Origin: Anoxybacteroides voinovskiense
Lineage (GTDB): Bacteria; Bacillota; Bacilli; Bacillales; Anoxybacillaceae
Length of the DNA stretch: 64,000 nucleotides
Reading direction: 5' to 3'
Assembly (NCBI RefSeq): GCF_014196205.1
Contig: NZ_JACIDE010000001.1
Span: forward strand, 124,001-188,000
How positions within the stretch are numbered: position 1 is the first letter of the stretch; the number at the start of each line of letters is the position of its first letter. A program made the translations under genes and the position numbers. This document shows, in pieces, positions 10,833 through 51,046 of the stretch. Under the pieces are notes generated by a model that made no database searches, was not told where the DNA came from, and saw only the letters and a list, made by a program, of their open reading frames with translations.

Positions 10833-10833
10833 T

Positions 10834-13500: not shown

Positions 13501-13509
13501 AATCAGCTC

Positions 13510-14727: not shown

Positions 14728-14773
14728 AGCCATTCCCCTTTCATAAAATATCGCAACTGAACGGATGCATCTG

Positions 14774-14838
14774 TGCTATAATAATAACTAGAAACGTTTT
14801 TGATCAGGCACTCTTCATCATAGAGAGTGTCTTTTTTT
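14774..14838 (+). ncRNA. Candidate short antisense-orientation transcript between nasC and the nitrate transporter gene
   Basis: On the plus strand an extended -10 (TGCTATAAT, 14774-14782) is followed after about 25 bp by a hairpin (GCACTCT / AGAGTGT, about 14808-14830) and a run of seven T. Together they could yield an RNA of about 50 nt ending beside the nasC stop codon. No good -35 is seen. Both neighbouring genes are on the minus strand, so this terminator does not serve them. Confidence 0.3.
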
Positions 14839-16978: not shown

Positions 16979-16989
16979 AGGCATTCCCC

Positions 16990-17295
16990 TTACAGCTGGA
17001 TATACATTTTTCCCGCTTCGATTTCCACCTTGTACGTTTTCACACATCCGTGATCAGGCGCTTGCACCTTCCCATCTTTGATGGAAATTTTCCAATCGTG
17101 AAGGGGGCAAAAGACGAACTCGCCACTAACGATTCCTTGCGACAAATCGCCTCCTTTATGCGGACAACGATTTTCTAATGCGTAAATCCGACCGTCCGAT
17201 AGGCGAAATATCGCCAATTCTCTCCCGCCTACTTTGACGCATTTTCCTAATCGTTCGACAAGACGCGCTGCTGAACCGATTTCTACTCGTGCCAT
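16990..17295 (-). CDS. nasE: Nitrite reductase small subunit (Rieske-type)
   Basis: 101 residues forming a NirD-type Rieske fold with both cluster motifs intact: CPHKGG and CPLHDW. Some NirD proteins lack these ligands; here Cys and His are all present, so a [2Fe-2S] cluster is likely. It partners NasD to reduce nitrite to ammonium. It starts 12 bp after nasD and precedes nasC by 11 bp. AGGAGG lies upstream of the ATG. Confidence 0.9.
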
Positions 17296-17307
17296 ACACC
17301 ATTCCTC

Positions 17308-29690: not shown

Positions 29691-29711
29691 AAAAACCTCT
29701 CCTCACATCTA

Positions 29712-31400: not shown

Positions 31401-31412
31401 TCTTCCCACCTC

Positions 31413-32099
31413 TTATTGTCCGTAATATGCATGAGCGCCATGTTTTCTAAGATAATGTCTGTCTAATAAAGACTGATCAATCGGCTGAACATTTGGATTG
31501 AGATGGCATGTTCTTGCCGCCATTTTAGCGACTTCCTCAAGAACAACCGCATTATGAACAGCACTATACGGATCATCCCCCCAAGCAAATGGTCCGTGGC
31601 TGTGAACAAGCACCCCTGGCACTTGCGTCGGATCTAAAAAGCGAAAGGTTTCAACAATCACATTTCCCGTTTCCATTTCATAAGCCCCTTTAATTTCCGC
31701 TTCTGTCATTTTTCTCGTACAAGGAATTTCTCCGTAAAAATAGTCTGCATGTGTCGTTCCTAAAGCCGGAATCCCCTTTCCTGCTTGTGCCCAAATCGTC
31801 GCCCAAGGAGAGTGGGTATGAACAATTCCGCCAATGGAAGGAAAAGATTTATATAGTACTAAATGAGTTGGCGTATCAGACGATGGTTTTCGTTTCCCTT
31901 CTACAATATTGCCTTCTAAATCAACAACAACTAAATCATCCTTTGTTATTTGGTCATACGCTACTCCACTCGGTTTGATGACAACAAGCCCTTGCTCTCG
32001 ATCAATACCGCTAACATTTCCCCACGTAAATGTCACTAATCGATAGCTAGGAAGTTGTAAATTCGCCTCTAGCACCTTTTGTTTTAGTTGCTCAAGCAT
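31413..32099 (-). CDS. araD: L-ribulose-5-phosphate 4-epimerase
   Basis: 228 residues of the class II aldolase fold. It carries [10 protein letters not shown], the phosphate-binding KPSGVAY and [12 protein letters not shown], and zinc ligands in [14 protein letters not shown] and [12 protein letters not shown]. It yields D-xylulose-5-phosphate, joining the pathway used by xylB. ATG 32099 follows AAGGAG by eight bases. It is first in araDBA, with AraR-like sites directly upstream. Confidence 0.95.
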
Positions 32100-32143
32100 C
32101 TCCCCCACTCCTTAATCAAAAAATTCTTTCACCTCCATTATAA

Positions 32144-32194: not shown

Positions 32195-33283
32195 TTATAT
32201 TTTCTTTGTTGATTCTCGAATAATTAACTCTGGTTGATAAATAATATCTTGTATTTCTTCATTTCGCTCAATCATCTGGATAAGTGTTTCTGCCGCTCTT
32301 ATCCCCATTTCTGCTTTCGGATGGGGAACTGTTGTCAACTTCACTTCTGTTGCTGTCGCAAACGTTGAGTCATCGAAGCCAACGATGGAAATATCATCAG
32401 GCACATTTAGTCCTAATTGACGAATAACATCCAATAGCTTAATTGCCAACTCATCGTTATAGCATACGATCGCTGTCGCTCTTTCCACATCAGCTTGTTG
32501 TAAGAAAGAGCGCACCAGTTCTAAAGGTTTTGTGTCTTTTTCTTCAGTTGTATACGTAACGAGATGTCGCGAAGACAAAGGTAGGTTATATTCCTGATGA
32601 GCACGAATAAAACCTTTTAGTCTACTGACTCCTTGCAAATCATCCGTTTTAAAAAACCCCGCGATTCGGCGATGACCAAGCTGTATTAAATGCTCAGTAA
32701 GCAAATATCCTCCTTTTTCATCATCCATTTTGATGACCGGACAACTCATTTCTAAATAACATTCGTTAATCATAACGTATGGAATATGTAAATTATTGAG
32801 TGTTAAGTAATACGAAAGATTAGGATTGCCTTGAGCACTTTTTGTCGGTTCGATGATAAGCCCACTTAACGGCTGTTGAATCATCGCCTCTAAATGGTCA
32901 CGCTCTTTCGTTTTGTCGTTATCGGTACTAGCCAACAATAGTCGGTATCCTTTTTCGCGCAACGTTTCTTCCGCTCCACGGACAATATGTGGAAAGATAT
33001 AATCGGAAATATATGTTGTTAAAATCGCTACTGTTTTTACTTCTTGTTTGCTGGCTAGCTTTGGCTTAGAAACAAATGTTCCGCTTCCTTGGATTTTATA
33101 TAGCCAACCTTCATTTTCTAATTCACCTAACGCTTGTCTAACTGTATGGCGACTTAACTGAAATTGGTTTGCAATTTCATGTTCTGTTGGTATTTTTTCA
33201 TTAGGGCTTAACTTCCCTGATTGAATCCAAGATAAAATTTCTCGTTTCAATTGCAAGTATTTTGGCACACTTTTTTCTTTCAT
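32195..33283 (-). CDS. araR: AraR, GntR/LacI-type arabinose repressor
   Basis: 362 residues. A GntR winged helix (about 5-72) contains PNEKIPTEHEIANQFQLSRH. A LacI-type effector-binding domain (about 80-355) follows, with PDDISIVGFDDSTFA. This hybrid of GntR and LacI parts is the hallmark of AraR. It represses arabinose genes and is released by L-arabinose. ATG 33283 has GAGGTG six bases upstream. It lies upstream of araDBA on the same strand; sites in front of both araR and araD suggest autoregulation and control of araDBA. Confidence 0.92.
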   Translation of the reverse strand: MKEKSVPKYLQLKREILSWIQSGKLSPNEKIPTEHEIANQFQLSRHTVRQALGELENEGWLYKIQGSGTFVSKPKLASKQEVKTVAILTTYISDYIFPHIVRGAEETLREKGYRLLLASTDNDKTKERDHLEAMIQQPLSGLIIEPTKSAQGNPNLSYYLTLNNLHIPYVMINECYLEMSCPVIKMDDEKGGYLLTEHLIQLGHRRIAGFFKTDDLQGVSRLKGFIRAHQEYNLPLSSRHLVTYTTEEKDTKPLELVRSFLQQADVERATAIVCYNDELAIKLLDVIRQLGLNVPDDISIVGFDDSTFATATEVKLTTVPHPKAEMGIRAAETLIQMIERNEEIQDIIYQPELIIRESTKKI

Positions 33284-33317
33284 AACGTTCACCTCGTGTT
33301 GAATAATCTACATATCC

Positions 33318-33384: not shown

Positions 33385-34605
33385 TTAAGACGCTTTGTTT
33401 TTGTTATAAATATCAAACGCAACAGCCGCAAGTAACACCAAACCTTTAATCGCCTGTTGCCAATCAATGCCTAATCCAAGCAACGACATCCCGTTGTTCA
33501 TGACCCCCATGACAAGACCACCGATAATCGCGCCACTTACTGTCCCAATACCACCATACGCAGAAGCGCCTCCAATAAAGCAAGCGGCAATGGCGTCGAG
33601 TTCAAATAGGTTTCCTGCTTTTGGTGTCGCTGCATTTAAACGCGCGGCAAAAATCAATCCCGAAAGTGCGGCTAAAACTCCCATGTTCACAAATACCCAA
33701 AATGTGACCCTTTTCGTTTTCACCCCTGATAATTGTGCCGCTTTTTCGTTTCCTCCAATTGCATATATATGCCGACCAACAATCGTCTTATTAGCGACAA
33801 ACGAATAAGCAACAATAAGTGTTGCGAGAATGATTAAAATATTCGGGATTCCTTCATATGTCGCGAGAACATAAGAGAAGACAGTGATCACAACGACAAT
33901 ACTAATTAACTTACCTATGAACATTGCTGCAGGGATTACGTCAAATCCGTACGTTTTAGCATTGTTTCTTTTTTTAATTTCTAACCAGATAAACAAAATA
34001 GATAAAAGCCCTCCGATGATAAGTGTTAGCAAATGGATATTCTTTCCGTGAAACACATCTGGAAGAAACCCTGAACTAATGTTTTGAAACGATTTTGGAA
34101 ATGGGGCAATCGATTGTCCTTTTAAGACAACCATCGTAAGCCCTCTAAACAATAACATACTTGCTAATGTAACAATGAAAGCTGGTATTTTTACATAAGC
34201 GATCCAAAATCCTTGCCATGCGCCAATCAATGCACCTAACAAAAGAGAAAGCACCACTGTAACAATCATCGGGACATGATGTTGCACCATTAAGATACCT
34301 GCTAGCGCACCTACAAACGCCGCTACTGACCCCACCGATAAATCGATGTGCCCGGTAATAATAACAAGCATCATCCCGATTGCTAGTACTAAAATGTAGC
34401 TGTTTTGCAAAATTAAGTTCGTTACGTTTAAGGGTCTTAATAAAATCCCGTCTGTCAAAAGTTGAAATAACAACATAATTAACACAAGTGCAACAACCAT
34501 ACTGTAGCTTCGAATATTGTTTTTAATCATTTGAGCAAATGGCTGGATCTTTGGTTCGATTGGTTCCGAATGGCGTGTCATTGTTTTTTGTGTCGGCATT
34601 TGCAT
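33385..34605 (-). CDS. araH: Sugar ABC transporter permease (arabinose/xylose type)
   Basis: 406 residues, about ten membrane segments after a 30-residue cytoplasmic head. It carries the permease signature GHIDLSVGSVAAFVGALAG and the late GGIGTVSGAIIGGLVMGVMNNG loop of the XylH/AraH/GguB family. It forms the channel of the importer with AraG and AraE. GGGGG precedes the ATG, five bases after the araG stop. Position beside araR and araDBA argues for L-arabinose; xylose cannot be excluded by sequence alone. Confidence 0.88.
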   Translation of the reverse strand: MQMPTQKTMTRHSEPIEPKIQPFAQMIKNNIRSYSMVVALVLIMLLFQLLTDGILLRPLNVTNLILQNSYILVLAIGMMLVIITGHIDLSVGSVAAFVGALAGILMVQHHVPMIVTVVLSLLLGALIGAWQGFWIAYVKIPAFIVTLASMLLFRGLTMVVLKGQSIAPFPKSFQNISSGFLPDVFHGKNIHLLTLIIGGLLSILFIWLEIKKRNNAKTYGFDVIPAAMFIGKLISIVVVITVFSYVLATYEGIPNILIILATLIVAYSFVANKTIVGRHIYAIGGNEKAAQLSGVKTKRVTFWVFVNMGVLAALSGLIFAARLNAATPKAGNLFELDAIAACFIGGASAYGGIGTVSGAIIGGLVMGVMNNGMSLLGLGIDWQQAIKGLVLLAAVAFDIYNKNKAS

Positions 34606-34610: not shown

Positions 34611-36146
34611 TTACCCCCTAACTTCCGTTTTTGTCATTAGTTTCATCAAGTTTTCTTGCGTTGCCTCATCTCGGCTCAACTCGCCTGTTATCCGTCCTTC
34701 GCACATCACGTAAATCCGATCACACATCCCTAAAATTTCTGGAAGCTCAGAAGAGACCAGTAAAATCCCTTTCCCATCTTGTGCTAACTGGTTAATAATT
34801 GTGTAAATTTCATATTTTGCTCCAACATCTATTCCGCGTGTTGGTTCATCTAAAATAAGAATATCTGGTTGCGCAAAAATCCACTTGCTTAATACTACTT
34901 TTTGCTGGTTTCCACCGCTTAGTTTTTCTGTTTTTTGAAATATGCTCGGTGTTTTTATTTTCAATCGTTCACGATATTTCTCTGACTCTACAATTTCTTT
35001 GTTTTCATCCACCACAAATTTTTTTGCCACTTTATTTAACCGTGATAACGTAATATTTTTGCGAATATCGTCCATTAAAATTAATCCATTTCCTTTGCGA
35101 TCTTCTGTTACATAGGCAATTCCGTTTTCAATCGCTTTGCTCACGTCGCTGACATCAATTTCGTATCCATTTTTGAAAATTTGTCCGCTAATTTTTTTTC
35201 CATACGATTTCCCAAAAATGCTCATAGCAAGTTCGGTTCGTCCTGCTCCCATCAAGCCGGCAATTCCGACAATTTCTCCTTTCCGAATATAAAAATTGAC
35301 GTCATCAATAACTTTTCGTTCATTATGAAGAGGATGATAAACGTTCCAATTTTTCACTTCAAATATTACTTCGCCAATGTTCGGTTCTCGTTTCGGATAA
35401 CGATTCGTTAAATCTCGTCCTACCATTCCTTTAATGATTCGGTCTTCTGTCACGTGGTCTTTTCTCATATCTAGCGTTTCAATCGTTTTCCCATCTCGTA
35501 AAATCGTGATTGAATCAGCGACTTTCGATATCTCGTTCAGTTTATGCGAAATAATAATCGCGGTCATGCCCTGCTTCTTAAATTCTAATAATAACCGCAG
35601 CAAATTTTCACTATCGTCCTCATTCAAAGCAGCAGTCGGTTCATCCAAAATCAATAATTTTACTTCTTTTGATAATGCCTTTGCAATTTCGACTAGCTGT
35701 TGTTTCCCGACCCCTAGATTTCCAACCAATGTATGCGGCGACTCATTTAATCCAACTTTTTTCAATAACTCTTTCGTTTTAACAATCGTTTCATTCCAAT
35801 TAATAACTCCTCGTTTGGCTTGTTCGTTGCCAAGAAAAATGTTTTCCGCAATCGATAAATAAGGAATAAGGGCCAATTCTTGATGAATAATGACAATCCC
35901 TAACTCTTCACTTTGTTTAATATCTTTAAATTTACATACTCCCCCTTTAAATAAAATGTCACCACTATATGTGCCGTAAGGATAGACACCGCTCAACACT
36001 TTCATTAGCGTCGATTTTCCTGCACCGTTTTCCCCGCAAAGCGCATGAATTTCCCCTTCTTTCACTTGCAAATTTACATTTTCAAGCGCTTTTACCCCTG
36101 GAAATTCTTTTGTAATTCCACGCATCTCTAATATGAACTGTGACAT
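34611..36146 (-). CDS. araG: Sugar ABC transporter ATPase with two cassettes
   Basis: 511 residues with tandem ABC cassettes. The first has a Walker [13 protein letters not shown], signature [15 protein letters not shown] and Walker [12 protein letters not shown]. The second has a diverged Walker A ([11 protein letters not shown]) as is normal for the sugar family, signature [14 protein letters not shown] and [14 protein letters not shown]. It powers the importer with AraH and AraE. It starts 76 bp after araE, past a long hairpin, and is followed by araH after five bases. Confidence 0.9.
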
Positions 36147-36222: not shown

Positions 36223-37299
36223 TTACTTAGTTAATTGATCTTTTGTGTAATATCCGCTATCTACTAACACTTTTTCGTAGTTAGAAATGTCTACAGAAAC
36301 CGGCTCCAATAAATAAGATGGCACGACTTTTACCCCGTTATTATATGTTTTCGTGTCATTTACTTCCGGTTTTTCTCCTTTTAAAACAGCGTCAGCCATT
36401 TCCACTGCTTTTTTCGCTAATTCTCGCGTATCTTTAAATACTGTTTGTGTTTGTTCCCCCGCAATAATGGATTTTACGGACGCTAATTCGGCATCTTGAC
36501 CTGTAATTACTGGCATCGGCTTTCCTGACCCGTAGCCAACTCCTTTTAATGATGAAATAATACCGATACTAATTCCATCATAAGGAGATAACACAGCATC
36601 AACTTTCGCATTTGTATAATGAGCGCTCAGTAAATTATCCATGCGTGCTTGAGCTGTCGCTCCATCCCACCGCAACGTAGCTACTTGATCAAATTTAGTT
36701 TGTCCGCTTCGAACGACTAATTTTCCAGAATCAATATATGGTTTTAATACAGACATCGCCCCGTCGAAGAAGAAATATGCGTTGTTATCATCTGGCGAAC
36801 CTGCGAACAATTCGATGTTGAACGGACCTTTCCCATCTTTTAGACCAAGCTTTTGTTCGATATATGAGCCTTGAAGCACTCCTACTTTGAAGTTATCAAA
36901 CGTAGCGTAGTAATCGACGTATTTGCTGTTTTTAATAAGACGATCGTAAGAAATGACTTTAATGCCTTGTTTATGCGCTTTTTCTAATACATCGGTAAGC
37001 GCTTCCCCGTCAATTGGCGCAATAACTAATACGTTAACTCCTTTTGTAATCATGTTTTCAATTTGTGATACTTGGTTTTCAACAACGTCTTCAGCATACT
37101 GCAAATCCGTTTTATAGCCAAGCTTTTTAAACTCTTTTACCATGTTTTCCCCATCGCTAATCCAACGTTCAGAAGACTTTGTTGGCATTGATATTCCAAC
37201 AAATCCAGCATCCCCTTTTCCTCCTGTTTCCTTTCCGCTACACGCGGCTAATGCAAATACAAATACAAGCAAAATCAATGTTGTGAAAAACTTCTTCAT
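36223..37299 (-). CDS. araE: Arabinose/xylose-type substrate-binding lipoprotein
   Basis: 358 residues. A lipoprotein signal ends in FALAACSG with the lipid-accepting Cys at 20. The mature protein is a type I periplasmic-binding fold of the ChvE/XylF branch, with [21 protein letters not shown] and [20 protein letters not shown]. It delivers sugar to AraGH. In G. stearothermophilus the corresponding araEGH transporter is controlled by AraT (recalled). A terminator, a cre-like site and an AraR-like site lie in the 174 bp before it. Confidence 0.88.
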
Positions 37300-37407
37300 C
37301 TTCTTTTCTCCCCCTTTAATGATTCTTGTGATTCAACTAGAATATAACACCTATAAAATTTTCAGTCTTTTCAATCAACTGACTTTTTTTATAAAAATTT
37401 AACTTTA

Positions 37408-37421
37408 GTAAAGCGTTTTCA
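37408..37421 (-). promoter_or_regulatory. Candidate CcpA (cre) site upstream of araE
   Basis: TGAAAACGCTTTAC on the minus strand agrees with TGWAARCGYTWWCA at 12 of 14 positions; the last two bases differ. It lies about 110 bp before the araE start. Confidence 0.35.
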
Positions 37422-37422
37422 A

Positions 37423-37452
37423 AAAAAGAGGGTGTCCACACACCCTCTTTTT
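37423..37452 (-). terminator. Terminator of the araPST operon
   Basis: Perfect 13-bp arms AAAAAGAGGGTGT and ACACCCTCTTTTT around a four-base loop. Confidence 0.85.
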
Positions 37453-37464
37453 GTACGTACCAAT
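37449..37464. promoter_or_regulatory. AraR-like site between araT and araE
   Basis: TTTTGTACGTACCAAT contains the core TGTACGTAC. It lies just after the araT stop, overlapping the foot of the terminator, 150 bp from araE. Confidence 0.45.
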
Positions 37465-37473
37465 TTATAATAT

Positions 37474-38703
37474 TTATAATAAAACTTCCCGAACTTCCTT
37501 AAATAAAAACGCTCCTTTGCGATATTGATTTGGAGACACACCTACTACTTTTTTAAATGCCGTACTGAAATAGTGTTGTGTATCATACCCTACTCGTTCG
37601 GAAATTTCATGAATGGTTAGCTGTGTCGAGACCAACAATTGAATCGCCTTTTTAATTCTTACTTCCGTTAAAAAATTGACAAACGATACCCCTAGTTCTT
37701 GTTTCATAATGCGGCTCAAATATACAGGCGAAACGTTTAGTGATTGAGCAACGGATTCTAATGTAAGTGTTTGATCGGAAAAATATTCTTGTACATATTG
37801 TTTTGCTCGTCGCACGATTGGCGAAATATTCGTTGCGCTATAAGCCCTCTTTTTGCAGATTTCATATGCGTCTGCTACTTTCGTGAGTTCTCCTTCTACC
37901 TCTGCAGCGTATATATTGGCTTGTATGTTTAAATACTGCTTTATCGTTTTCTCAATTGTGCGAAATAGTTCTTCATCGACCCAATCCCATAAACATATCA
38001 CAATAAAGCCTACCGTATCGCGAAAAACCACTTTTCTTTTTCCCTCTAACAACTCCGAAGCGATATTTTCAATAGCAAAAAAGAACAATTGTTTATCCTT
38101 TTCGCTCATTAGTAGTTTGGTGCTGAAAAACTCTTGCCAGTAAATCACCGCCAGTTGTACAGGACAGGTGGATGGGAGCTTGAAAAACTGCAATTGGGCA
38201 AAGATTTCGATTTCTTTCAATCGACCATGAATCCACTCTAAACAAAATTGCTGACGGATGAGTGGAAAATTTTTTTGCACTTGTTTTGACAATAACGTAA
38301 CATATTCCGATTGTTGCAATTCCTTTGTTAGTTGCTGTTGAATTTTTTTCGCCACTTCACGCAAATGAGAAGGATTCGTTGGCTTTAAAATATAATCGTC
38401 GACTTGTAAACGAATCGCTTCTTGGGCGTAAGCAAATTCGTCATGTCCGGTGACGACAACAATCCTACATTTTGAAAGATTTTTTCTTATTTGTTTCATT
38501 AGAGAAATTCCGTCCATAATAGGCATAGTCAAATCAACAAATAGAATATCAATTTGATGGCGTAGCGCTAATTCCAACGCTTCTTCTCCATCTTCCGCTT
38601 CCGCTACTACTTTCATTTGGAACTCGTTCCAATCAATCGCTTCTCTAATCCCCTCACGAATAATCGCCTCGTCATCGGCAATCAATACCTTCCATGTTCG
38701 CAC
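37474..38703 (-). CDS. araT: AraC-type response regulator
   Basis: 409 residues. The receiver domain (1-125) has acidic D10-D11, acceptor D57 in ILFVDLTMP, and Lys in YILKPTN. The C-terminal AraC double helix-turn-helix (about 300-400) has LNVSPVYLSRIMKQELGVSF and ISERVGYDTQHYFSTAFKK. The middle is a YesN-type linker. With AraP and AraS it forms a three-component sugar sensor that should switch on the adjacent araEGH transporter. It lies 11 bp after araS. Confidence 0.88.
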   Translation of the reverse strand: MRTWKVLIADDEAIIREGIREAIDWNEFQMKVVAEAEDGEEALELALRHQIDILFVDLTMPIMDGISLMKQIRKNLSKCRIVVVTGHDEFAYAQEAIRLQVDDYILKPTNPSHLREVAKKIQQQLTKELQQSEYVTLLSKQVQKNFPLIRQQFCLEWIHGRLKEIEIFAQLQFFKLPSTCPVQLAVIYWQEFFSTKLLMSEKDKQLFFFAIENIASELLEGKRKVVFRDTVGFIVICLWDWVDEELFRTIEKTIKQYLNIQANIYAAEVEGELTKVADAYEICKKRAYSATNISPIVRRAKQYVQEYFSDQTLTLESVAQSLNVSPVYLSRIMKQELGVSFVNFLTEVRIKKAIQLLVSTQLTIHEISERVGYDTQHYFSTAFKKVVGVSPNQYRKGAFLFKEVREVLL

Positions 38704-38714
38704 ATTTCTCCCCC

Positions 38715-40502
38715 CTAGCAGCTTATGATAGGATGAACGATTGTTACCGTTGTTCCCTCTCCTTCTTTGCTTTCTACTTCTAGACCATAAACGTCGCCAA
38801 ATGTTAATCGAATTCTTGCATGTACATTCATCATTCCATAGCCTTTTATTTTTTTTCCTCCAGCAGTAAAATCAGCGGCTAAACTTTCCCTTAACGAAGA
38901 CAATGCTTCTTGGGACATTCCAATGCCATCGTCTTGCACTTTAATAATTAACTTTCCATCTTTTTCTTCTGCTCTAATGAAAATATGCCCAGGTCCTCTT
39001 CTCTGCTTAATCCCATGATAAATAGCATTTTCCACAATCGGCTGTAGTACGAGCTTTACTATATATAAATCGTGAACACTTTTGGAAATAGCAAACGTGT
39101 AATTTAGCTTTTCTTGATACCTTACTTTTTGAATGCTTAAATAGCTTTGGATATGTTCCATTTCTTCAGAGAAAGGAATCATGTCTTTCCCTTTGCTTAA
39201 CCCGATACGAAATAGTTTAGACAACGATTCGACGACTTGTGCGACATCATCCGCTCCTCTTTTTCGTGCCATCCAGTGTATCGTATCAAGCGTGTTATAA
39301 AGAAAATGTGGCTTAATGTGCTCCTGTAGGCTACGAAGTTCCGCTTCCCATCTTTGGCGTTCCTTCCATTCCACTAGGGAAATAAAACGCTGAATTTGGT
39401 CAAGCATTTTATTAAAGCTCTTCCCTAACATGCCTATCTCATCCGAACGGTTCTCTCGATAACGGCTCGTTAAATCTCCTGCCTCCGCTTTTTCCATAAA
39501 GGATATGAGCTGCCCAATCGGTCTTGATAATGAGCGGGCTAAGTAGTAGGAAGCACCGAGACCAACAAAACATACAAAAAAGACGAAGCAAGTAACGTAA
39601 AAACGGATTTCTTTAATTTCTAAAGCCGATTCTTGATTAGAAAAAACCCCTATTGTCGTCCAGTTTGTAAATGGCGAACGTTGGTAAATGAACTGAAGAT
39701 ACTGACCGTGGATGTTATGTGAGAACGTTCCGGAATCTTTTTTAAACCACACTGTTCGAATTTGTCCAATTAGCGAACGGGCAGGAGAATAAATATTTTC
39801 TCCCCGATGATCGATTACCATCAAATACCCCCATTTTCCTAAACGAACGTTTTTTGTTGCCTCCGCAATGACCCTTAGTTTTAAATCCACTAATACTACA
39901 CCTTCGACTTCTTGTGTTTCTGGATTTAAAATGGCGCGTACCGCTGATACTACTTCGCTATTTTTATAATTCGTGTGCGTCGTTACGTTTCGTTGATGAG
40001 GGTGACCAATGATTTTAAAAATGCCTTTATTTTGAACTGCTTCTTTGTACCACGTTTCGTCTGTAAGCGATTTCGTCGAGCGAGCATACATTTCGTTGCT
40101 AATGTACTCTCCTTTATAGTTGACAAGAAGAATTCCGGCAACTTCAGGATATAACGTAGTAATGCCTCGTAAAAATTGACGAATACGGTACTCGTCGCTC
40201 GTTTCCCCAATTCCTTGCATCTTTTCATTGCCTGCTAAAAATTTTTTCACTTCTGGGTTAAAAGCCGCCAAATACGTGATGTTTTGCATATTGCTCAAGT
40301 AAAACTCTAATGTTCGGTTTACTTGGTTAATGACCTGAAGTGTATTTTGATTAATTTGCCTATCCATCGTTCGATCTACCGCCCAACTCGTCAGCACCCC
40401 CAATCCTAGCGAAGGTAAAATCATAATTAGCAATAAAAGTGAAACTAATTTATAACGAATCGGCAAATTGTTAAGCTGAAAATATTGGGTCATTTTCAAC
40501 AT
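38715..40502 (-). CDS. araS: Membrane sensor histidine kinase of the YesM type
   Basis: About 595 residues. Membrane segment 1 (about 18-40), an extracellular Cache-type domain (about 45-290) with TDETWYKEAVQNKGIFKIIG, segment 2, then a HAMP linker (ARSLSRPIGQLISFMEKAEAGDLTSRY). The His kinase domain has LQEHIKPHFLYNTLDTIHWM, VENAIYHGI and DDGIGMS. AraP probably presents the sugar signal to the extracellular domain. ATG 40502 has GAGGG upstream; an ATG at 40517 overlaps the araP stop as ATGA and would lengthen it by five residues. Confidence 0.88.
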   Translation of the reverse strand: MLKMTQYFQLNNLPIRYKLVSLLLLIMILPSLGLGVLTSWAVDRTMDRQINQNTLQVINQVNRTLEFYLSNMQNITYLAAFNPEVKKFLAGNEKMQGIGETSDEYRIRQFLRGITTLYPEVAGILLVNYKGEYISNEMYARSTKSLTDETWYKEAVQNKGIFKIIGHPHQRNVTTHTNYKNSEVVSAVRAILNPETQEVEGVVLVDLKLRVIAEATKNVRLGKWGYLMVIDHRGENIYSPARSLIGQIRTVWFKKDSGTFSHNIHGQYLQFIYQRSPFTNWTTIGVFSNQESALEIKEIRFYVTCFVFFVCFVGLGASYYLARSLSRPIGQLISFMEKAEAGDLTSRYRENRSDEIGMLGKSFNKMLDQIQRFISLVEWKERQRWEAELRSLQEHIKPHFLYNTLDTIHWMARKRGADDVAQVVESLSKLFRIGLSKGKDMIPFSEEMEHIQSYLSIQKVRYQEKLNYTFAISKSVHDLYIVKLVLQPIVENAIYHGIKQRRGPGHIFIRAEEKDGKLIIKVQDDGIGMSQEALSSLRESLAADFTAGGKKIKGYGMMNVHARIRLTFGDVYGLEVESKEGEGTTVTIVHPIISC

Positions 40503-40513
40503 GAATCCCTCTT

Positions 40514-41512
40514 TCATTTCGCATAAAAACTATCGACATTCTCTTTCGTAACAACTGTAATGCCTGTATCGACGTATGAAGGCATCAACGGATAATCGGA
40601 TGATAACGACGGTGTTAGTTTATGATGAAGATGAAATAAAAATTGTAGCGCCCAATAGCCCATATTCCATGTGCCTTGAGCAAGCGTTGCATCGATAAGG
40701 CCTTGTTTAACCATATCTAACGTTCTTTTGTCTGTGTCGAAACTGATAATTTTTGTTTTTTTGGCTAATAGGGAAACTGCTTCTCCTACTCCTACTCCTC
40801 CGTTTGCTTCGGTAACAAAAATTCCGGAAAGGTCGGGGTATTGTTTCAATATTTCCAGTGCTACTTGCTTAGAAACAAGTGCATCTCCTTTTCCGTCTTT
40901 TACCACCGCCACTTCTATTCCGGGGTATTCTTTGTACATCGTTTCAATAAATCCTTTTGTTCGTTGCTGGTGGTTTAGTTGGTTTGGCAATGTAATGACA
41001 GCGACTTTCCCTTTTCTCCCAAGCAGTTCAGCCATCTTATGTGCAGCTGTTGCTCCGGCATTGTAGTTATTTGTTCCTAAAAAAGAAAACGCTTTACTTC
41101 CAAGGGCATCGGAGTCGAATAATACAACAGGGATTCCTTGTTCGACTGCTTTATTAATTGTTTTCGTCAGTTTGTTAGGATCCATTGCTGAAATAGCGAT
41201 ACCTGCTGGTTTTCTAGCAATCACTTGTTCTAACACTGTCACTTGTTCGTTCACATCGTATTGCGTTGCTCCGCGATATTCGACCGAGACGTTTAACGCC
41301 TGTGCCGCATCTTCGAACCCTTTTAAACAGTTTTTCCAATAATCAATTCCCGATAAAAAGGTGACCATCACGTATTTTTCATCTATCTTTCCACTTAATC
41401 CCCCACTTTCTTGACTAAGAGAGTTAATACGTGAATTTTCTAAATGGTAGTTATATACATATATAACAAGAGCACCGACCAAGAAAATATACATAATTAG
41501 TAATTTTTTCAC
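40514..41512 (-). CDS. araP: Membrane-anchored sugar-binding protein of the three-component sensor
   Basis: 332 residues. An N-terminal hydrophobic helix (about 4-22, LLIMYIFLVGALVIYVY) carries no lipobox Cys and no clear cleavage site, so it is probably an uncleaved anchor. The rest is a type I sugar-binding fold with DYWKNCLKGFEDAA, VVLFDSDALGS and ISFDTDKRTLDMVKQGLIDATLAQ. It resembles AraP of Geobacillus, which senses external arabinose with AraS. The GTG at 41512 or TTG at 41515 follow GGGGGG. It follows the chemoreceptor gene by about 15 bp. Confidence 0.82.
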   Translation of the reverse strand: MKKLLIMYIFLVGALVIYVYNYHLENSRINSLSQESGGLSGKIDEKYVMVTFLSGIDYWKNCLKGFEDAAQALNVSVEYRGATQYDVNEQVTVLEQVIARKPAGIAISAMDPNKLTKTINKAVEQGIPVVLFDSDALGSKAFSFLGTNNYNAGATAAHKMAELLGRKGKVAVITLPNQLNHQQRTKGFIETMYKEYPGIEVAVVKDGKGDALVSKQVALEILKQYPDLSGIFVTEANGGVGVGEAVSLLAKKTKIISFDTDKRTLDMVKQGLIDATLAQGTWNMGYWALQFLFHLHHKLTPSLSSDYPLMPSYVDTGITVVTKENVDSFYAK

Positions 41513-41527
41513 CAATACCCCCCCTGC

Positions 41528-43222
41528 CTACGACACTTTAAACTGTTGAATAAGCTGCTGCAAAGCCCCCGCCATACTCGATAAGATCGCTGCAGAAGCA
41601 GCAATTTCTTGCATCGAGGCCAGTTGTTCTTCAGTTGTAGCAGAAACTTCTTGGGTTCCTGTTGAGGTTGATTTTGCTATTTCGTGAATGGTTTGCAACG
41701 CCTGAGCAAATTTTTTTGTTCCATCCGACACTTTTTTTACAGCCGCAGAAACTTCACCAATTTGCTCGGCAATGTCATGAATCACACGCTTAATTTCGAT
41801 AAATGTATCCCCAACGGTATGGATAGCGGTAATTCCCCCTTCAGCTTCTTTTATTGCTATCTCCATCGATTGCACCGCGTCGTTCGTTTCTTGTTGGGTG
41901 GAAGTAATTAACGCACCAATTTGTTGAGCGGACTGTGCTGACTGCTCAGCTAATTTTCTTACTTCATCTGCCACTACAGCAAAGCCACGCCCGTGTTCTC
42001 CTGCTCTTGCCGCTTCAATAGCGGCATTTAAAGCCAACAAGTTCGTTTGCTCTGCGATTCCGGTGATGATTTCAAGAATATTTCCTATTTGCTTGGAGCG
42101 CTCTCCTAACGTCCTTACAATTTCTCCTAGATTGATTATTGTTTCATTTACTTTGTTCATTTTCGTCACTGCTGTTTGAACAGTCTCGTTTCCTTTCATA
42201 ACTTGCTTTAATGCATGATCTGTAATATATGCAACACTTTGGGTTCGTTCGGTAGCAAGTTGTACGTCGCTAGACATTTCCTCCACCGTTTTTTCTTGCT
42301 CTTCCACATTTCGAACCTGCTGTTCCATTCCGAAAGCAATTTGTTGCATTGTCATCGCAATATGTTCGGCCGCTTCGTTCGTCTGTTCAGCACTTGCTGT
42401 CAGTTGTTCAGAAGAAGCTGCTACTTGTCCTGCACCGAGCGATACTTGCTCAATGATTGTCCGCAAATGTGTTAACATTTGCTGAAATGCTTTTGCCAAT
42501 ACGCCGATTTCATCGCGATTCTTTATCGTAATTTCATTTTCTGTCAAGTCACCGCTTGTTACACGTTTAGCCATTTCCGAAAGCGCTACCACTGGTTTTG
42601 AAATAGTTAAGCTATTATACAATGCCACAACAAACGCTACAATAATGGCGACTCCACTAACAACAACTAGTAACATCTGAATGACTCTCGCTTGCGAAGA
42701 AACGTTATTCTGCACAGTATCTAACTCCACCTGCTGAACAGCAACTAACTGCTGGGAAGTTTTATCAAACTTTGAAATAATCTCTCTTCCAGTCGTAGAA
42801 AGTAGTTTCGTATAGGCTTTGAAATCCCCGCCTTTCTTCAACTGAAACGCTTGCTGACCGAGTTGGTAAAATTGTTGCTCCAATTCATCTAATTGTGCCA
42901 GCAATTCCTTTTCGTGCTTTTGTTTCAATGCTTTTCTAATACCCATAGACCGTTTTTTATACTCTTCATGTGCTTTGTTGAAATTTGCTAAAGAGGTAGG
43001 ATCGTCTGTTATTAAATAGCTCCCCATGCTTCCTTTTGCAGTTTGAATGATTACCTCTAACTGCTTCATCTTCATCATTTTTTCCATCTTCTCATTTACT
43101 AGCTGCTGATAGCTATGATTGATCTTCTGAATCTCGATGTGCGCTACACCTGCCATTAAAATTAATAAAGCAATCACAAGCGAAAATCCTACAAACAATT
43201 TTGTCTTTACGTTAATGTTCAT
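41528..43222 (-). CDS. Transmembrane methyl-accepting chemotaxis protein in the araPST operon
   Basis: 564 residues. Membrane segment 1 (about 9-28), a four-helix-bundle-type extracellular domain (about 30-185), segment 2 (about 186-208), HAMP, then the signalling domain with the hairpin tip [25 protein letters not shown] split by the usual heptads. It relays sugar or binding-protein signals to CheA/CheW. ATG 43222 follows GAGGG by seven bases. The stop is about 15 bp before araP and no terminator intervenes, so it heads the sensing operon. Two AraR-like sites lie upstream. It may read sugar-loaded AraP or AraE; that is inference. Confidence 0.88.
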
Positions 43223-43244
43223 CAAAAATCCCTCGCCCCCAACA

Positions 43245-43312
43245 AATTGTACGTATCATTTTTTCGTTTTTCCGAGAAATACAACGTTTAAAAATGCATT
43301 GTTCGTACAATT
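43245..43312. promoter_or_regulatory. Two AraR-like operators upstream of the chemoreceptor-araPST operon
   Basis: AATTGTACGTATCATT (43245-43260) and ATTGTTCGTACAATT (43298-43312) each hold an AraR half-site pair. Centres are about 52 bp apart, roughly five helical turns, as suits looping. Confidence 0.55.
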
Positions 43313-43514
43313 AAATTTATTATTAATTTATCATGTTTGAAGTGAAAATTGCAAACTTGTCATGCAAACGGATTATTCATCATTCTACTAAAAAAACAAA
43401 TTGAACATTATTGAAAAGACATAGAACAAAATCAAAGTATTGCTCACCCTTCTGTTGATTTCTTTTGTTCTTCTGTTAATCTATAGGTAAGCCATATTCA
43501 AGGGAGGTGGGACA

Positions 43515-44081
43515 GTGGCTACTCCTGATCAAGGCAAAAACTATTCGTATGCTGATTGGGAAACGTGGGAAGGGCGTTGGGAGCTCATTAACGGAAAAGC
43601 GTACGATATGACGCAGGCTCCGTCTTCTGAGCATCAGTTTTCCGTAGGAGAATTGTATTTTTCCTTGCGTCGTTTTTTCCAAAACAAACAATGTTTTGTG
43701 TTTGTCGCTCCGTTTGATGTATTCCTTGGTCAAAAAGACGATAAGGAAACTCCTGATGATATTGTCCAGCCCGATATTGCCATCATTTGCGACAAAAAAC
43801 AGATTAGAAAAAAGGGGTGCTACGGAGCACCGGCACTTGTTGTCGAAGTATTGTCACCATCCACTGCCTTAAAAGACGATAACGAAAAATTTTATACTTA
43901 TCAGCGCCACGGAATTCGTGAGTACTGGATTGCTGATACTGCCAATCAAATGGTTCACGTATACTATTTGCAAGAAGGAACGTACCAACGAATCGCAACG
44001 TACGGACAACAAGATACGTTGCACTCGGCACAATTTAAAGAATTATCCATTCCGTTAGCACCATTGTTTGCATGGAGCTAA
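43515..44081 (+). CDS. Uma2 / DUF820 family PD-(D/E)XK nuclease-fold protein
   Basis: 188 residues. The Uma2 pattern is present: WELINGKAYDM at the start, then VQPDIAIIC, PALVVEVLSPSTALKDDNEK and GIREYWIADT, giving the Asp and Glu-x-Leu catalytic-type residues of the restriction-endonuclease fold. The family's biological role is mostly unknown; genes are abundant in cyanobacteria and scattered in thermophilic bacilli. The start is GTG with GGGAGGTG upstream. It stands alone between arabinose and acyl-CoA genes, on the opposite strand to both, which hints at an independent insertion. Confidence 0.82.
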   Translation: MATPDQGKNYSYADWETWEGRWELINGKAYDMTQAPSSEHQFSVGELYFSLRRFFQNKQCFVFVAPFDVFLGQKDDKETPDDIVQPDIAIICDKKQIRKKGCYGAPALVVEVLSPSTALKDDNEKFYTYQRHGIREYWIADTANQMVHVYYLQEGTYQRIATYGQQDTLHSAQFKELSIPLAPLFAWS

Positions 44082-44112
44082 AACGGCTCTTGTCGTCTGA
44101 ACAAGAGCCGTT
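44082..44112. terminator. Bidirectional terminator after the Uma2 gene
   Basis: Perfect 12-bp arms AACGGCTCTTGT (44082-44093) and ACAAGAGCCGTT (44101-44112) lie between converging genes. Confidence 0.8.
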
Positions 44113-44117
44113 CGTTC

Positions 44118-44882
44118 TTATTTTCCGATAAAGTTCGGTTTTCGTTTTTCTAAAAATGCTTGGACGCCTTCACGGTGGTCTTTTGTTTTCCGCATTTTTT
44201 GCTGGGCGTCGGTTTCGAGCTGAAGGACGTGCAGCAATTCGTCTTTTGTCGTTTTGGCGTACAGCGTTTTTGTTGCAATCATCGCTTGTAGCGGTTTTGC
44301 TTGCCATTCTGCTAGTTTTTGTTTGATTTGTTCTTCGTTTTCCACGATGAAATCGACGATGCCTAAATCATATGCCTCCATCGCACTCATCGTCTTTCCT
44401 TCCCAAATAAGATGTTTCGCTTTTACTTCACCGACGCGCTTCGCTAAAAAGAAATGACCCCCACCATCTGGGACAAGCCCGATGCCGATAAAATTCATCG
44501 CTAAGCGCGCATCTTTTGTCGCGATGACATAATCGCTTGCCAAGGCGAAACTTAACCCTAATCCTGCCGCTGGTCCATGAATCGCTGCGACAACAATTTT
44601 CGGCAGCTCGTACAATGTCGTGATAAGTTGCTGAATCGTGTTCATTACGTCATGAAACGCTTCTTCATCTTCGACGCGAAGCATCGTTTTAATATCGCCG
44701 CCAGCGGAAAATCCTCTTCCTCTTCCACGAATGAGAAGAAGCTGTGCATCGCTTCGTTCGACTTGGCGAAGCGCTTCGACCAATTCGTTCAACATTTGCA
44801 CGTCCATCGCATTTAACGAATCCGGACGATTCAACTCTAATACTGCGACATTTCCTGAAAATGAAAGCACTACTGTTTCCAT
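44118..44882 (-). CDS. Enoyl-CoA hydratase/isomerase family protein
   Basis: 254 residues of the crotonase fold. The oxyanion-hole segments are GRGFSAGGDIKTML and AIHGPAAGLGLSFALASDYV. At the second active-site position the protein reads FIGIGLVPDGGGHFFLAKRVG, with Asp rather than the common catalytic Glu, as in isomerase-type or PaaG-like members. It acts on an unknown acyl-CoA. It follows the aldehyde dehydrogenase gene, but a terminator separates them, so a shared pathway is not established. Confidence 0.8.
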   Translation of the reverse strand: METVVLSFSGNVAVLELNRPDSLNAMDVQMLNELVEALRQVERSDAQLLLIRGRGRGFSAGGDIKTMLRVEDEEAFHDVMNTIQQLITTLYELPKIVVAAIHGPAAGLGLSFALASDYVIATKDARLAMNFIGIGLVPDGGGHFFLAKRVGEVKAKHLIWEGKTMSAMEAYDLGIVDFIVENEEQIKQKLAEWQAKPLQAMIATKTLYAKTTKDELLHVLQLETDAQQKMRKTKDHREGVQAFLEKRKPNFIGK

Positions 44883-44952
44883 CGTTCTCCCCCTGTTTCA
44901 CCGATTTCCTTTTACTTTATTCCGCACGATTGGCAAAAATCCTTTTTTCAAT

Positions 44953-44986
44953 ATAAAAAAAATCCGCACCACTTCAAGTGGCACGG
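44953..44986 (-). terminator. Terminator after the aldehyde dehydrogenase gene
   Basis: A hairpin built on CCACTT / AAGTGG with further pairing below is followed on the minus strand by eight T. Confidence 0.75.
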
Positions 44987-44995
44987 GCGAACTTG

Positions 44996-46435
44996 TTAGC
45001 GATTCCGGTTGAAAATGATCAGCTTTAACTCCGTCATTTCTTCGATCGCGTAGCGAATTCCTTCGCGGCCAAATCCGCTTTCTTTCACACCGCCATACGG
45101 CATATGATCGACGCGGAACGTTGGGATATCGTTAATAAGCACCCCGCCGACATGCAGTTTCTCCGCCGCTTCCCACGCCGTATGAACATTGTCGGTATAT
45201 ATGCCGGCTTGCAGCCCGTAGCGCGAATCATTGACAAGTTCAATCGCTTCGTCGACGGAAGACACTTGATTAATTAAGACGATTGGCGCAAATACTTCTT
45301 GGCATGATACTTTCGTCGTTGGCGCTGCGTCTAAAATCACTGTCGGCAATAAAATATTTCCTTGTCTCTCCCCACCAATTGCAACGGTAGCGCCGCCTTG
45401 TTTCGCTTCTTCGATCCAATCTAGCGAACGCTCGACGTCTTTGGCAGAAATAAGTGCGGAAACGTCTGTGCTCGGATCAAGCGGGTCGCCGACTTTCAAC
45501 TGCTTCACCGCCGCAATAAACTTTTCAACAAATTCTTTATACCGTTTTTCATGCACGTAAATACGTTGCAACGAAATACATACTTGCCCTTGGAACGAGA
45601 AAGCACCGACGACGCACCGCGGAATGATTCGTTCGATATCGACTTGTTCATCGATAATGACCGCTGAGTTTGATCCTAATTCTAGAGTAACACGTTTTAA
45701 GCCCGCTTTGTTGCGAATGCCAATCCCTACTTCAGGGCTCCCGGTAAAGGTTACCATGCTAATGCGTGGATCGGTAACAATTTGGTCGCCGACCGTTTTT
45801 CCACTTCCGGTCACGACATTGAGCGCTCCTTTTGGCAGTCCTGCCTGTTCAAACAGCTCCGCAATAAAATACGCAGAAAGCGGTGTTTGGCTTGCTGGTT
45901 TCAATACGACCGTATTTCCAGAGGCAATCGCAGGGCCTAGCTTGTGCGCTACTAAGTTCATCGGGAAATTAAACGGCGTAATCGCTCCGATGACTCCAAT
46001 TGGCTCTCGCGTCGTAAATGCGACACGATTTTCCCCGCCTGGCGCGGCATCAAGCGGAAGCGTTTCCCCATAAATCCGTTTCGCTTCTTCCGCGGCGAAT
46101 TTATACGTTTGAATCGTGCGCGCTACTTCCGCTTTGGCGGTCGTAATTGGTTTTGCTGCTTCTTTCGCGATGATCGTAGCCGCTTCTTCCGCCCGCTGTT
46201 GCAATAGCGAAACGACTCGCTCTAAAATCGCTGCACGCTCATGCGCTGGCATCTTTGCCATCGTCCGCCGCGCTTCATACGCAGCCGCAATCGCTCGCTT
46301 GGCATCACGCTCTGTCGCGAACGGAATCTCCGCCAACACTTCGCCAGAATACGGCGACAAAAGCTCAGTGTAAGCCTCCGCTTCTACCCATTCCCCGTTA
46401 ATGTAAAGCTTCTTTTTTTCGGTTGTTGTGTGCAT
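44996..46435 (-). CDS. NAD(P)-dependent aldehyde dehydrogenase
   Basis: 479 residues, full length. Motifs are the Rossmann-side TPFNFPMNLVAHKLGPAIAS, FTGSPEVGIGI, catalytic Glu in LELGSNSAV and catalytic Cys in GQVCISLQRI, with the C-terminal PYGGVKESGFGREG. It resembles lactaldehyde, succinate-semialdehyde and phosphonoacetaldehyde-type dehydrogenases. The aldehyde substrate is undetermined. It is a single gene upstream of the enoyl-CoA hydratase gene. Confidence 0.87.
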   Translation of the reverse strand: MHTTTEKKKLYINGEWVEAEAYTELLSPYSGEVLAEIPFATERDAKRAIAAAYEARRTMAKMPAHERAAILERVVSLLQQRAEEAATIIAKEAAKPITTAKAEVARTIQTYKFAAEEAKRIYGETLPLDAAPGGENRVAFTTREPIGVIGAITPFNFPMNLVAHKLGPAIASGNTVVLKPASQTPLSAYFIAELFEQAGLPKGALNVVTGSGKTVGDQIVTDPRISMVTFTGSPEVGIGIRNKAGLKRVTLELGSNSAVIIDEQVDIERIIPRCVVGAFSFQGQVCISLQRIYVHEKRYKEFVEKFIAAVKQLKVGDPLDPSTDVSALISAKDVERSLDWIEEAKQGGATVAIGGERQGNILLPTVILDAAPTTKVSCQEVFAPIVLINQVSSVDEAIELVNDSRYGLQAGIYTDNVHTAWEAAEKLHVGGVLINDIPTFRVDHMPYGGVKESGFGREGIRYAIEEMTELKLIIFNRNR

Positions 46436-49643: not shown

Positions 49644-49678
49644 ACTCCCCTTTGCCATTAACGAGGCAAAAGGGGAGT
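49644..49678 (-). terminator. Terminator overlapping the end of the soluble chemoreceptor gene
   Basis: Arms ACTCCCC-TTTGCC (49644-49656) and GGCAAAAGGGGAGT (49665-49678) pair with one bulge, and a T run follows on the minus strand. The stop codon at 49658-49660 is in the loop, so the last codons form one arm. Confidence 0.75.
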
Positions 49679-51046
49679 CGTTACCGCTAAATCGACCCCT
49701 ATCACACCGACGATTTGGTCGCCGCGAAAAATCGGGGCTGAAATCGTCAAGCACGGGCGTTTCGTCAAGGCGGACGTGTAAATGTCAGAAACGTACGTCC
49801 GCCCTTTGCTCGCTTCGATAAACCACGGGCGCGCTTTGGCGTTCACAAGTCCTGCCGGCGGATTCGAATAGATGAACGTCCCATCTAAATTGTTCGACCA
49901 AATCGCTTCCACATTCGCATGCGACCGTAAAAATTCGTTCAAGTACATTTCGTGCTGCTGCTTATTCATTTCATATAATGGATGAGACTCGAGCAACAGC
50001 GTAAGGCTTGCTTTTGTTTGAACAACGACCGTTTCATCGACGGATACTGCTGTGGCTATCCCGTCTTTCATAATGGTTTGCAATTCATCGGATGTTTTTT
50101 CCAACGCTTTATTAATATGCATCATTTGCTCAACGTTTTGGTGTTGAAGCTCCATGTCTTGTTCCACCCGTTGTGCATGTTCTTTGTTTTTAATAGCCAT
50201 GACAGAAATTTGCTCTAATAATGCAGCGATTTCTTGTACGCTCGCTGTTTGCGCCTCAGCTGCTTGCGTCGAATCAAATACCATCGCTGTAATATCGCTT
50301 AGTTTTCCCTTCAATAAATCCAATATGTGCAATACGCTCATCATTTCGTGCGAGCCGCTTTCGATTTGCACGGTCTCCATTTTCACCATATTGGTCGTCG
50401 CTGCAATTTCGTTTTGAATCGATGACAAAATGTCACGCGTCTGTTCGACCGCTTTTGATGTTTGGCTTGCCAAGTTTCCGACTTCATTCGCGACAACCGA
50501 AAACCCTTTTCCATGCTCTCCTGCTCGTGCCGATTCAATGTTTGCATTTAAAGCAAGGATGCTCGTCCGTTGAGAAATAGAACCAATTGCGGAAAGAATG
50601 TGATTAATTTCTTGCGACTGATGGACTAAACTTTCCATTTGCTTTAATAAAATATGGTGGCTGTTGCGTAATTCATCCATTTCTGATTGTAGTTTTCTCA
50701 GCGAATTCCATGAATGAACCAACTCTTCATAAAATAGCTGGCTGCTCGAATGAATTTGTTGGGAAGCGGCGGATACTTTTAATGCAGATGAAGCGATCGT
50801 TTTCATTTTTTCCGATACACGTAATGTATAATCCATCGTCTTTTCAAGATGGGTTGTTAGCGCTGTTGTGCTCGATTTACTTGATGCAGAGATTTCATTC
50901 AGCGAATTAGCCGAAAGTTTCATTTGTTCAATCACTGCTTTTAGTTGGTCAGCCGCTACTTCAATTTGCCCGAGCAATTGCTCATTTTCTAATGAAAGTG
51001 TATCTTGTTCTTCCTTAAATTTCGCACGCCATTTTAACAAAAACAT
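49658..51046 (-). CDS. Soluble chemoreceptor with N-terminal signalling domain and C-terminal Cache domain
   Basis: 462 residues and no membrane segment. After a short coiled start, the MCP signalling domain occupies about 25-330 with the hairpin tip SISQRTSILALNANIESARAGEHGKGFSVVANEV. The last about 120 residues form a Cache/PDC-like module with NNLDGTFIYSNPPAGL, ARPWFIEASKGRTYVSDIY and ISAPIFRGDQIVGVIGVDLA. The sensor is therefore behind the signalling part, the reverse of usual receptors, and should sit in the cytoplasm. AAAGGGGAG precedes the ATG. Its ligand is unknown. Confidence 0.82.
   Translation of the reverse strand: MFLLKWRAKFKEEQDTLSLENEQLLGQIEVAADQLKAVIEQMKLSANSLNEISASSKSSTTALTTHLEKTMDYTLRVSEKMKTIASSALKVSAASQQIHSSSQLFYEELVHSWNSLRKLQSEMDELRNSHHILLKQMESLVHQSQEINHILSAIGSISQRTSILALNANIESARAGEHGKGFSVVANEVGNLASQTSKAVEQTRDILSSIQNEIAATTNMVKMETVQIESGSHEMMSVLHILDLLKGKLSDITAMVFDSTQAAEAQTASVQEIAALLEQISVMAIKNKEHAQRVEQDMELQHQNVEQMMHINKALEKTSDELQTIMKDGIATAVSVDETVVVQTKASLTLLLESHPLYEMNKQQHEMYLNEFLRSHANVEAIWSNNLDGTFIYSNPPAGLVNAKARPWFIEASKGRTYVSDIYTSALTKRPCLTISAPIFRGDQIVGVIGVDLAVTTPLLPR

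Follow-up and report, generated by a model that had tools for sequence, protein, structure and literature searches.

The Chemoreceptor Gene

The window described here is a 64,000-nt stretch of the genome of the heat-loving Anoxybacteroides voinovskiense (assembly GCF_014196205.1, contig NZ_JACIDE010000001.1, positions 124,001 to 188,000), and positions are given within it unless stated otherwise. A methyl-accepting chemotaxis protein (MCP) gene (41528–43222, minus strand, ATG at 43222) heads a row of minus-strand genes in the order MCP, araP, araS, araT, araE, araG, araH, araR, araD, araB, araA, and appears to be placed between the arabinose control region and araP. Three of these genes, encoding the MCP, the binding protein AraP, and the kinase AraS, occupy positions 38715–43222. 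The MCP stop codon is separated from the GTG start of araP by 15 nt. A terminator scan of positions 41400–43600 found no terminator-like site on the coding (minus) strand; its two hits, where 1.7 are expected by chance, are both on the plus strand. The preliminary description of a chemoreceptor gene that heads the araP row, about 15 bp away and with no terminator between, is borne out, and the gene is complete.

Numbered from the TTG at 43225, the MCP has two membrane stretches, near residues 4–35 and 177–213, a HAMP domain at 207–255, and an MCPsignal domain at 336–516 with a conserved hairpin tip at residue 395. The outer domain matches 4HB_MCP_1 in Pfam with a score of 39.7 bits against a cut-off of 27. 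Three motifs resembling the methylation motif of chemoreceptors are present. The genome (G000) has 17 places that match the MCP, one match to CheA (PF02895, contig C2), and three to flagellin, all four of the latter above their family cut-offs. With its membrane helices, HAMP domain, signalling domain and tip, and a CheA in the same genome, the protein is a transmembrane methyl-accepting chemotaxis protein.

A second MCP gene in the window (49658–51046, minus strand) has an unusual domain order, with MCPsignal at residues 132–281 followed by a Cache-like domain at 314–453 of 462. It lacks a clear membrane helix, its hydropathy over 19 residues peaking at 1.28. Its counterpart in A. rupiensis (L106) consists of two open reading frames (ORFs).

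The Control Region

Two AraR-like boxes, 52 nt apart, lie upstream of the MCP gene on the minus strand, box 1 at 43298–43311 (ATTGTACGAACAAT) and box 2 at 43246–43259 (ATGATACGTACAAT), as the preliminary description had proposed of this region. They were found with the established AraR box consensus, and AraR operators are reportedly also known from Geobacillus stearothermophilus T-6. Promoter-like hexamers (TTTTCA or TTCACT, then AATAAT; 43319–43348, minus strand) are located just upstream of box 1, and the sequence near them, ACATGATAAATTAATAA, is common to the relatives; a sigma-70 promoter scan was at chance level, with 5 found against 5.0 expected.

With at most two mismatches allowed, the 14-base pattern gives 10 matches across the window against a chance mean of 2.24, a count reached in 1 of 100 shuffles. 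At least two boxes within 400 nt occurred in 1 of 300 single-nucleotide shuffles of the MCP upstream stretch. Single boxes are weak, since one-mismatch counts in the genome (43 and 49) equal those of the reversed-pattern control (44 and 39), and a genome-wide listing of boxes was for this reason discarded as proof of a regulon. The three exact matches in the genome are the MCP site, one intragenic site, and one site between the ends of convergent genes. Because single boxes are weak, the argument for AraR control rests on the pair and on its recurrence in relatives.

Of 41 genomes of the family, 13 have an araP orthologue at E 1e-60 and three (G000, G003, and G005) have an MCP gene upstream of it. 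All three of these ara-linked MCP genes are preceded by a box pair, compared with none of the other 27 among the 30 family MCPs compared; two of these 27 (L060 and L063) have broken frames and true starts outside the comparison. The spacing of the pair is 52 nt in G000, 51 nt in G003, 79 nt in G005, and 74 nt in G007, a genome of another genus that has no MCP in its arabinose cluster. A box resembling box 1 precedes the MCP gene in G003 and G005; in the MCP-less G007 and G002, such a box precedes araP. When the stretch that begins 30 nt ahead of box 1 and runs to the start codon is aligned, the sequence upstream of araP in G007 is identical to that upstream of the MCP gene at 108 of 141 positions in G005 and at 85 of 114 in G000. 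Since G007 has the pair directly before araP, the MCP gene seems to fill a slot between the control region and araP. The last ~400 nt before araP in G000 and G005 contain no AraR box. An MCP remnant between promoter and araP in G002, G007, and G036 was looked for by tblastn and short blastn and rejected, as nothing rose above chance; the present distribution would suit either an insertion of the MCP gene in some genomes or its clean loss from others. With the box pair upstream and an araR gene in the genome, the MCP gene carries the sequence marks of an AraR regulon member.

The Arabinose Cluster

All genes of the cluster are on the minus strand, and the gaps from the MCP gene to araA are 15, −4, 11, 174, 76, 5, 92, 86, 3, and 21 nt. 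The araP gene (40514–41512, GTG start, or TTG at 41515) encodes a membrane-anchored sugar-binding protein (Peripla_BP_4) whose N-terminus forms a membrane helix. The AraP sequence shows no lipobox, although AraP of G. stearothermophilus T-6 is said to be a lipoprotein. Among solved structures, the window AraP is closest to 6sw4, “Arabinose binding protein” (E 7e-157), and L-arabinose is its candidate ligand. AraP also matches the XylFII chains 5xsj_X (E 1.7e-31) and 5xsd_A (E 2.2e-30).

By domain search, araS (38715–40517) encodes a sensor histidine kinase with dCache_1, HAMP, and His_kinase domains, and araT (37474–38703) a response regulator with an AraC-type helix-turn-helix (HTH) domain. 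A weak AraR-like box (37451–37462, minus strand, 11 of 14 positions) is located in the araT-araE interval. The transporter genes exceed their NCBIfam cut-offs: araE (36223–37299), a lipoprotein sugar-binding protein with the lipobox LAAC, scores 589.3 bits as a ChvE family member (cut-off 460), the ABC ATPase gene araG (34611–36146) scores 908.8 bits as GguA (cut-off 810), and the ABC permease gene araH (33385–34605) scores 600.9 bits as GguB (cut-off 450). Domain searches further identify araR (32195–33292), with a GntR HTH and a LacI-type sugar-binding domain, and araD, araB, and araA (28200–32108), encoding a class II aldolase, an FGGY kinase, and an L-arabinose isomerase. An anchored binding protein, a His_kinase-type kinase, and an AraC-type regulator stand in one row beside araEGH, which is the AraPST arrangement. 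Judged by these sequence matches, the neighbours of the MCP gene are a genuine L-arabinose cluster.

Distribution of Chemoreceptors in Sugar-Sensing Clusters

The Geobacillus system had been described beforehand as holding only araP, araS, and araT, and this fits the four genomes of genus g3 (three of them Geobacillus) that have no MCP gene before araP, one of which was judged on 264 nt; in a fifth, the contig stops within araP. In a collection of named loci (80 kept of 206 confirmed), an MCP gene lies directly upstream of araP in four, L105 (partial), L107, L120, and L125, and in a fifth, the Paenibacillus locus L119, it heads araEGH-araPST. Across the 80 loci, with the window excluded, five of eight MCP ORFs occupy slots immediately before an ara gene, of which there are 27 among 738 flanking ORFs (P 2e-6). 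Collapsing L105 with L107 and L120 with L125 leaves three of six (P 8e-4). The three non-adjacent MCP ORFs are all in L106, and two of them are halves of one gene.

A class-wide sample gave matches in 42 of 398 genomes, one of which is the window's own; of the remaining 41, all but G207 were fetched, giving 40 loci, and some are from the same genomes as named loci. In 29 of the 40 loci, araP lies beside a kinase or regulator gene (the L221 kinase is masked by a longer ORF), and in the other 11, AraP-like proteins follow a transporter ATPase and permease, two such contigs being ~4 kb long. In the named loci L136, L152, and L177, araP is masked by a longer overlapping ORF. A seeming AraP-AraS fusion in Cohnella (L177, a 1038-aa ORF) was rejected: Pfam finds the kinase part only, and the frame differs from that of araP. 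MCPs were recognized throughout by blastp at 1e-5 against a small library, which a very divergent MCP could escape.

In the three Paenibacillus loci L119, L120, and L125, the MCP gene is either the first of the ara genes or placed among them. Each of the three products has a Pfam match to 4HB_MCP_1, that of L119 being below the cut-off. Their sensor parts are at least 40% identical among themselves and 13–15% identical to that of the window MCP, and because of this low identity a separate recruitment in Paenibacillus is suggested. A search of 394 Paenibacillaceae genomes with the L120 sensor part gave nine matches, one of which (G762) is the genome of L119 itself. In three others (G726, G736, and G699), the MCP gene follows the permease gene and closes a row of regulator, kinase, binding protein, binding protein, ATPase, and permease; in the G699 row, the second binding protein is not resolved. 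The remaining five show no neighbour labelled as such a sensing or transport row by the small library.

The three MCP-closed rows of Paenibacillaceae (loci L281, L282, and L283) represent a second kind of sensing and transport row with a chemoreceptor gene. The transporter of L282, the only one of these rows tested, is MglAB-like but falls under the NCBIfam cut-offs. The L282 MCP gives no 4HB match at E 1e-5, and in L283 the second binding protein is masked by an overlapping ORF.

The genome of the window also has a xylose sensing and transport cluster (L092, G000:C11:62000-80000, at 7065–18001 of that locus). Its order is an sCache_3 MCP, an AraP-like binding protein, a kinase, a regulator, and a XylFGH-like transporter, after which comes another MCP-like gene with a HAMP domain. 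The transporter's binding protein scores above the xylF cut-off (TIGR02634) and its ATPase above a xylose cut-off. The upstream MCP gene is also present in G003 and missing in G002, G004, G005, and G006. Both flanks and the last codons of the gene remain in G004, where it seems to have been deleted; a weak trace (tblastn E 0.001) suggests that this perhaps also happened in G005. A terminator-like hairpin and a promoter region resembling the cre motif, both judged by eye, lie between the MCP and binding protein genes and weaken an operon reading. Because the hairpin separates the two genes, the xylose-linked MCP is better read as a neighbour than as a clear operon partner.

A literature search that covered listings partly and subscription papers hardly at all turned up no description of araPST operons with an MCP, which is a weak negative. 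The available text of PMC4194401 contains neither “chemotaxis” nor “methyl-accepting”.

Descent, Selection, and Exchange

The three ara-linked MCPs of the family form one clade (support 100/100) near a family-wide 4HB MCP, and the node joining the clade to most copies of this paralogue has support 88/79. Identity to the full-length copies is 46–53%. Between G000 and G003, the ratio of nonsynonymous to synonymous substitution rates (dN/dS) of the MCP gene is 0.13 for residues 1–200, 0.17 for residues 200–413, and 0.25 for the C-terminal part; between G000 and G005 it is 0.08 over the full length, with synonymous sites near saturation. For araP and araS, the corresponding values are 0.20–0.21 and 0.04–0.07. 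The MCP values of 0.08–0.25 indicate selection for function.

The block comprising the MCP gene and its control region (41503–43485) is 80–93% identical between G000 and G003, while the flanking stretches (37303–41503 and 43485–45285) are 96–100% identical. Since the divergent block sits between such similar flanks, exchange by recombination is suggested, and the divergent stretches would form a mosaic. Further divergent stretches between the two genomes are found over araG/araH, near 45285, and near 46185.

The G003 MCP gene is found in two pieces, which were compared apart (L078 1–838 and L079 1–1378). On contig C46, its frame runs into other sequence 134 nt from the contig end, and the remaining MCP part, on contig C308, comes after an IstB fragment. 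The apparent interruption is within the signalling domain, and a short repeat is visible by eye at the junction.

The ara cluster of G007 is 94% identical to that of the window at the DNA level over 10.5 kb, which suggests transfer between genera. The G007 cluster (L080, G007:C4:159000-178000) adjoins sequence that, by eye, resembles a group II intron end.

Sensor Fold and Known Systems

The MCP outer domain was modelled from two sequences as four helices, with a mean pLDDT of 79.6 and a pTM of 0.63. In a Foldseek search, the model had no match at E ≤1e-3; MCP2201 (1.4e-3) came closest, followed by 5xsj_L (1.5e-3), the LytSN chain of the XylFII-LytSN complex. VIA-align ranks HK9 first (Z 18.4), followed by LytSN 5xsj_L (Z 17.7, rmsd 1.8 over 121), MCP2201 (Z 16.9), and PcaY_PP (16.8), where neighbours within 1 Z count as tied. 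The model predicts a four-helix bundle for the outer domain, and its PDB matches are led by 4HB sensor domains. The comparison does show that such a bundle is able to dock a protein related to AraP, because the LytSN fold has been solved with XylFII and XylFII chains match AraP. The shared fold alone shows no function.

The AraPST-AraEGH system of G. stearothermophilus T-6 has the same row of araP, araS, araT, araE, araG, and araH, and the window AraP is a relative of the solved arabinose-binding protein; in the window, by contrast, araP is preceded by an MCP gene, with the control region upstream of that gene. The T-6 gene set araPST-araEGH is given in PMC4617443 and PMC4194401. In the XylFII-LytS system of xylose sensing (5xsj, 5xsd; PMC6321045), the binding protein is a relative of AraP and the kinase carries the fold predicted for the MCP outer domain, but here it is a chemoreceptor that bears the 4HB domain, and AraS, the kinase, is of the dCache type.

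Stimulation by binding proteins is described in reviews for 4HB receptors of E. coli and for kinases such as LytS (PMC6321045, PMC9602780). As in E. coli, a 4HB receptor occurs here with a sugar ABC transporter that has a binding protein. The E. coli arrangement differs in gene placement, since here the MCP gene stands within the sensing row and is preceded by what looks like an operator for its own sugar. AraP, the candidate partner, is also anchored in the membrane. SbpA of Azospirillum is akin to ChvE of Agrobacterium. ChvE serves both VirA and chemotaxis (PMC4086400), and chemotaxis to L-arabinose depends on SbpA (PMC4042000). The window AraE belongs to the ChvE family, but in this case two binding proteins are encoded alongside a receptor gene in one cluster. 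The arrangement would be a variation on binding-protein-coupled chemotaxis, the principle of which is already known.

Proposed Role and Alternatives

We propose, with a probability of about 0.52, that the MCP is an AraR-controlled accessory chemoreceptor encoded in an MCP-araP-araS-araT unit, with L-arabinose as its input through AraP or AraE. The MCP gene would be the first of this co-transcribed unit, upstream of the AraEGH transporter. Arabinose entering the cell would release AraR, so that the receptor is made along with AraP and AraS/AraT and joins the CheA arrays of the cell. Its outer four-helix bundle would most likely dock a loaded binding protein, AraP in the first place and AraE in the second, and one extracellular sugar would drive transport, transcription, and movement. 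Input through AraP or AraE is the most economical reading because of the fold likeness and of the reviews on E. coli 4HB receptors and LytS, on ChvE, and on SbpA. The sequence itself shows intact genes with their order and spacing, the box pair, the descent and recurrence of the MCPs, and CheA and flagellin genes in the genome; co-transcription, control by AraR, docking, arabinose as stimulus, and the direction of the response are inferred.

The preliminary description had supposed a binding protein shared by AraS and the chemoreceptor, coupling the induction of transport with movement toward the sugar. The sequence supports the position of the MCP gene at the head of the operon, the ara-type control region upstream of it, and the recurrence of MCPs in operons of this kind. 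AraS signalling, on the other hand, cannot generally depend on the MCP, because most of the ara clusters seen are without one. A shared protein feeding both AraS and the MCP, with swimming toward arabinose, is plausible in view of the modelled fold and of the kinship of AraP with XylFII. A wider version, in which AraP docks on both the dCache AraS and the 4HB MCP and chemoreceptors have repeatedly been attached to tripartite sugar-sensing operons in Bacilli (arabinose twice, xylose, and a MglAB-like sugar), is offered tentatively and is doubtful as a whole.

A number of observations weigh against the proposed role. The MCP gene is not upstream of araP in nine of the 13 family genomes, the 13th (G029) being cut inside araP. 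It is absent from the cluster in 75 of the 80 named loci (three of which have <300 nt upstream), and none of the 40 fetched class loci shows it within the stretch examined. At the same threshold, the box pair is confined to G007 among the nine family genomes without the MCP; a single box is present in G002, G032, G018, and (with doubt) G024, and none in G036, G031, G028, or G017, with weaker sites in G036 and G031. The family-wide paralogue adjoins an MFS gene and a miaA-like gene, not a binding protein gene, in one annotated locus. G000 has no close copy of this paralogue, so the ara-linked gene of G000 may be the paralogue itself relocated into the ara slot, although both genes are present in G003 and G005. 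The simplest reading of the G003 pieces is that the MCP gene was interrupted by an IS21-type element with araPST intact. Finally, the LytSN fold match is tied with MCP2201 and PcaY_PP, receptors that bind small molecules directly.

The alternative that survives best, although we consider it unlikely, is that expression alone is tied to arabinose: the MCP would keep the ligand of the family-wide paralogue, one with no relation to arabinose, and would have been captured by the ara promoter since arabinose marks plant material, in which such a ligand would be of use. The kinship with this paralogue (46–53% identity), the examined copies of which have no box pair, and the MFS and miaA-like neighbours in the annotated locus agree with such a capture. 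However, MCPs of different descent are found in ara clusters of Paenibacillaceae, and relatives of these MCPs occur there in a row of another sugar type, which fits better with an input by sugar or binding protein than with an incidental ligand.

Direct binding of L-arabinose or another pentose by the four-helix bundle, with no binding protein involved, is given a lower probability still. The fold equals that of MCP2201 and PcaY_PP, which have been solved with small ligands, but no sugar-bound 4HB receptor is among the best 50 matches listed in either fold comparison, and genes for two cognate binding proteins lie close by.

It is improbable that the MCP gene is a passenger, a near-neutral insertion gained and lost without consequence. 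The patchy presence of the gene, its apparent interruption in G003, and the seeming deletion of the xylose-linked MCP in G004 and perhaps G005 would all be expected of a passenger, whereas the low dN/dS, sensor part included, and the repeated association with sensing operons would not. That the MCP chiefly tunes AraS by competing for AraP, with chemotaxis secondary, would suit adjacent genes in one apparent unit but is very improbable given the full signalling tip, the retained methylation-like motifs, and the many araPST clusters seen without an MCP.

Implications

The ligands of many chemoreceptors are unknown, and cases coupled to binding proteins are hard to find (PMC6321045). Here a receptor, two candidate binding proteins, a kinase, a regulator, and a transporter are clustered with an apparent arabinose switch, which names both a ligand and partners for testing. 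If the proposed role is true, the MCP would be a sugar-inducible chemoreceptor linking uptake induction and movement, and its recurrence would provide a rule by which the ligands of other MCPs could be assigned from genome context. The cell may make an arabinose-finding sensor together with the genes by which it detects and imports arabinose.

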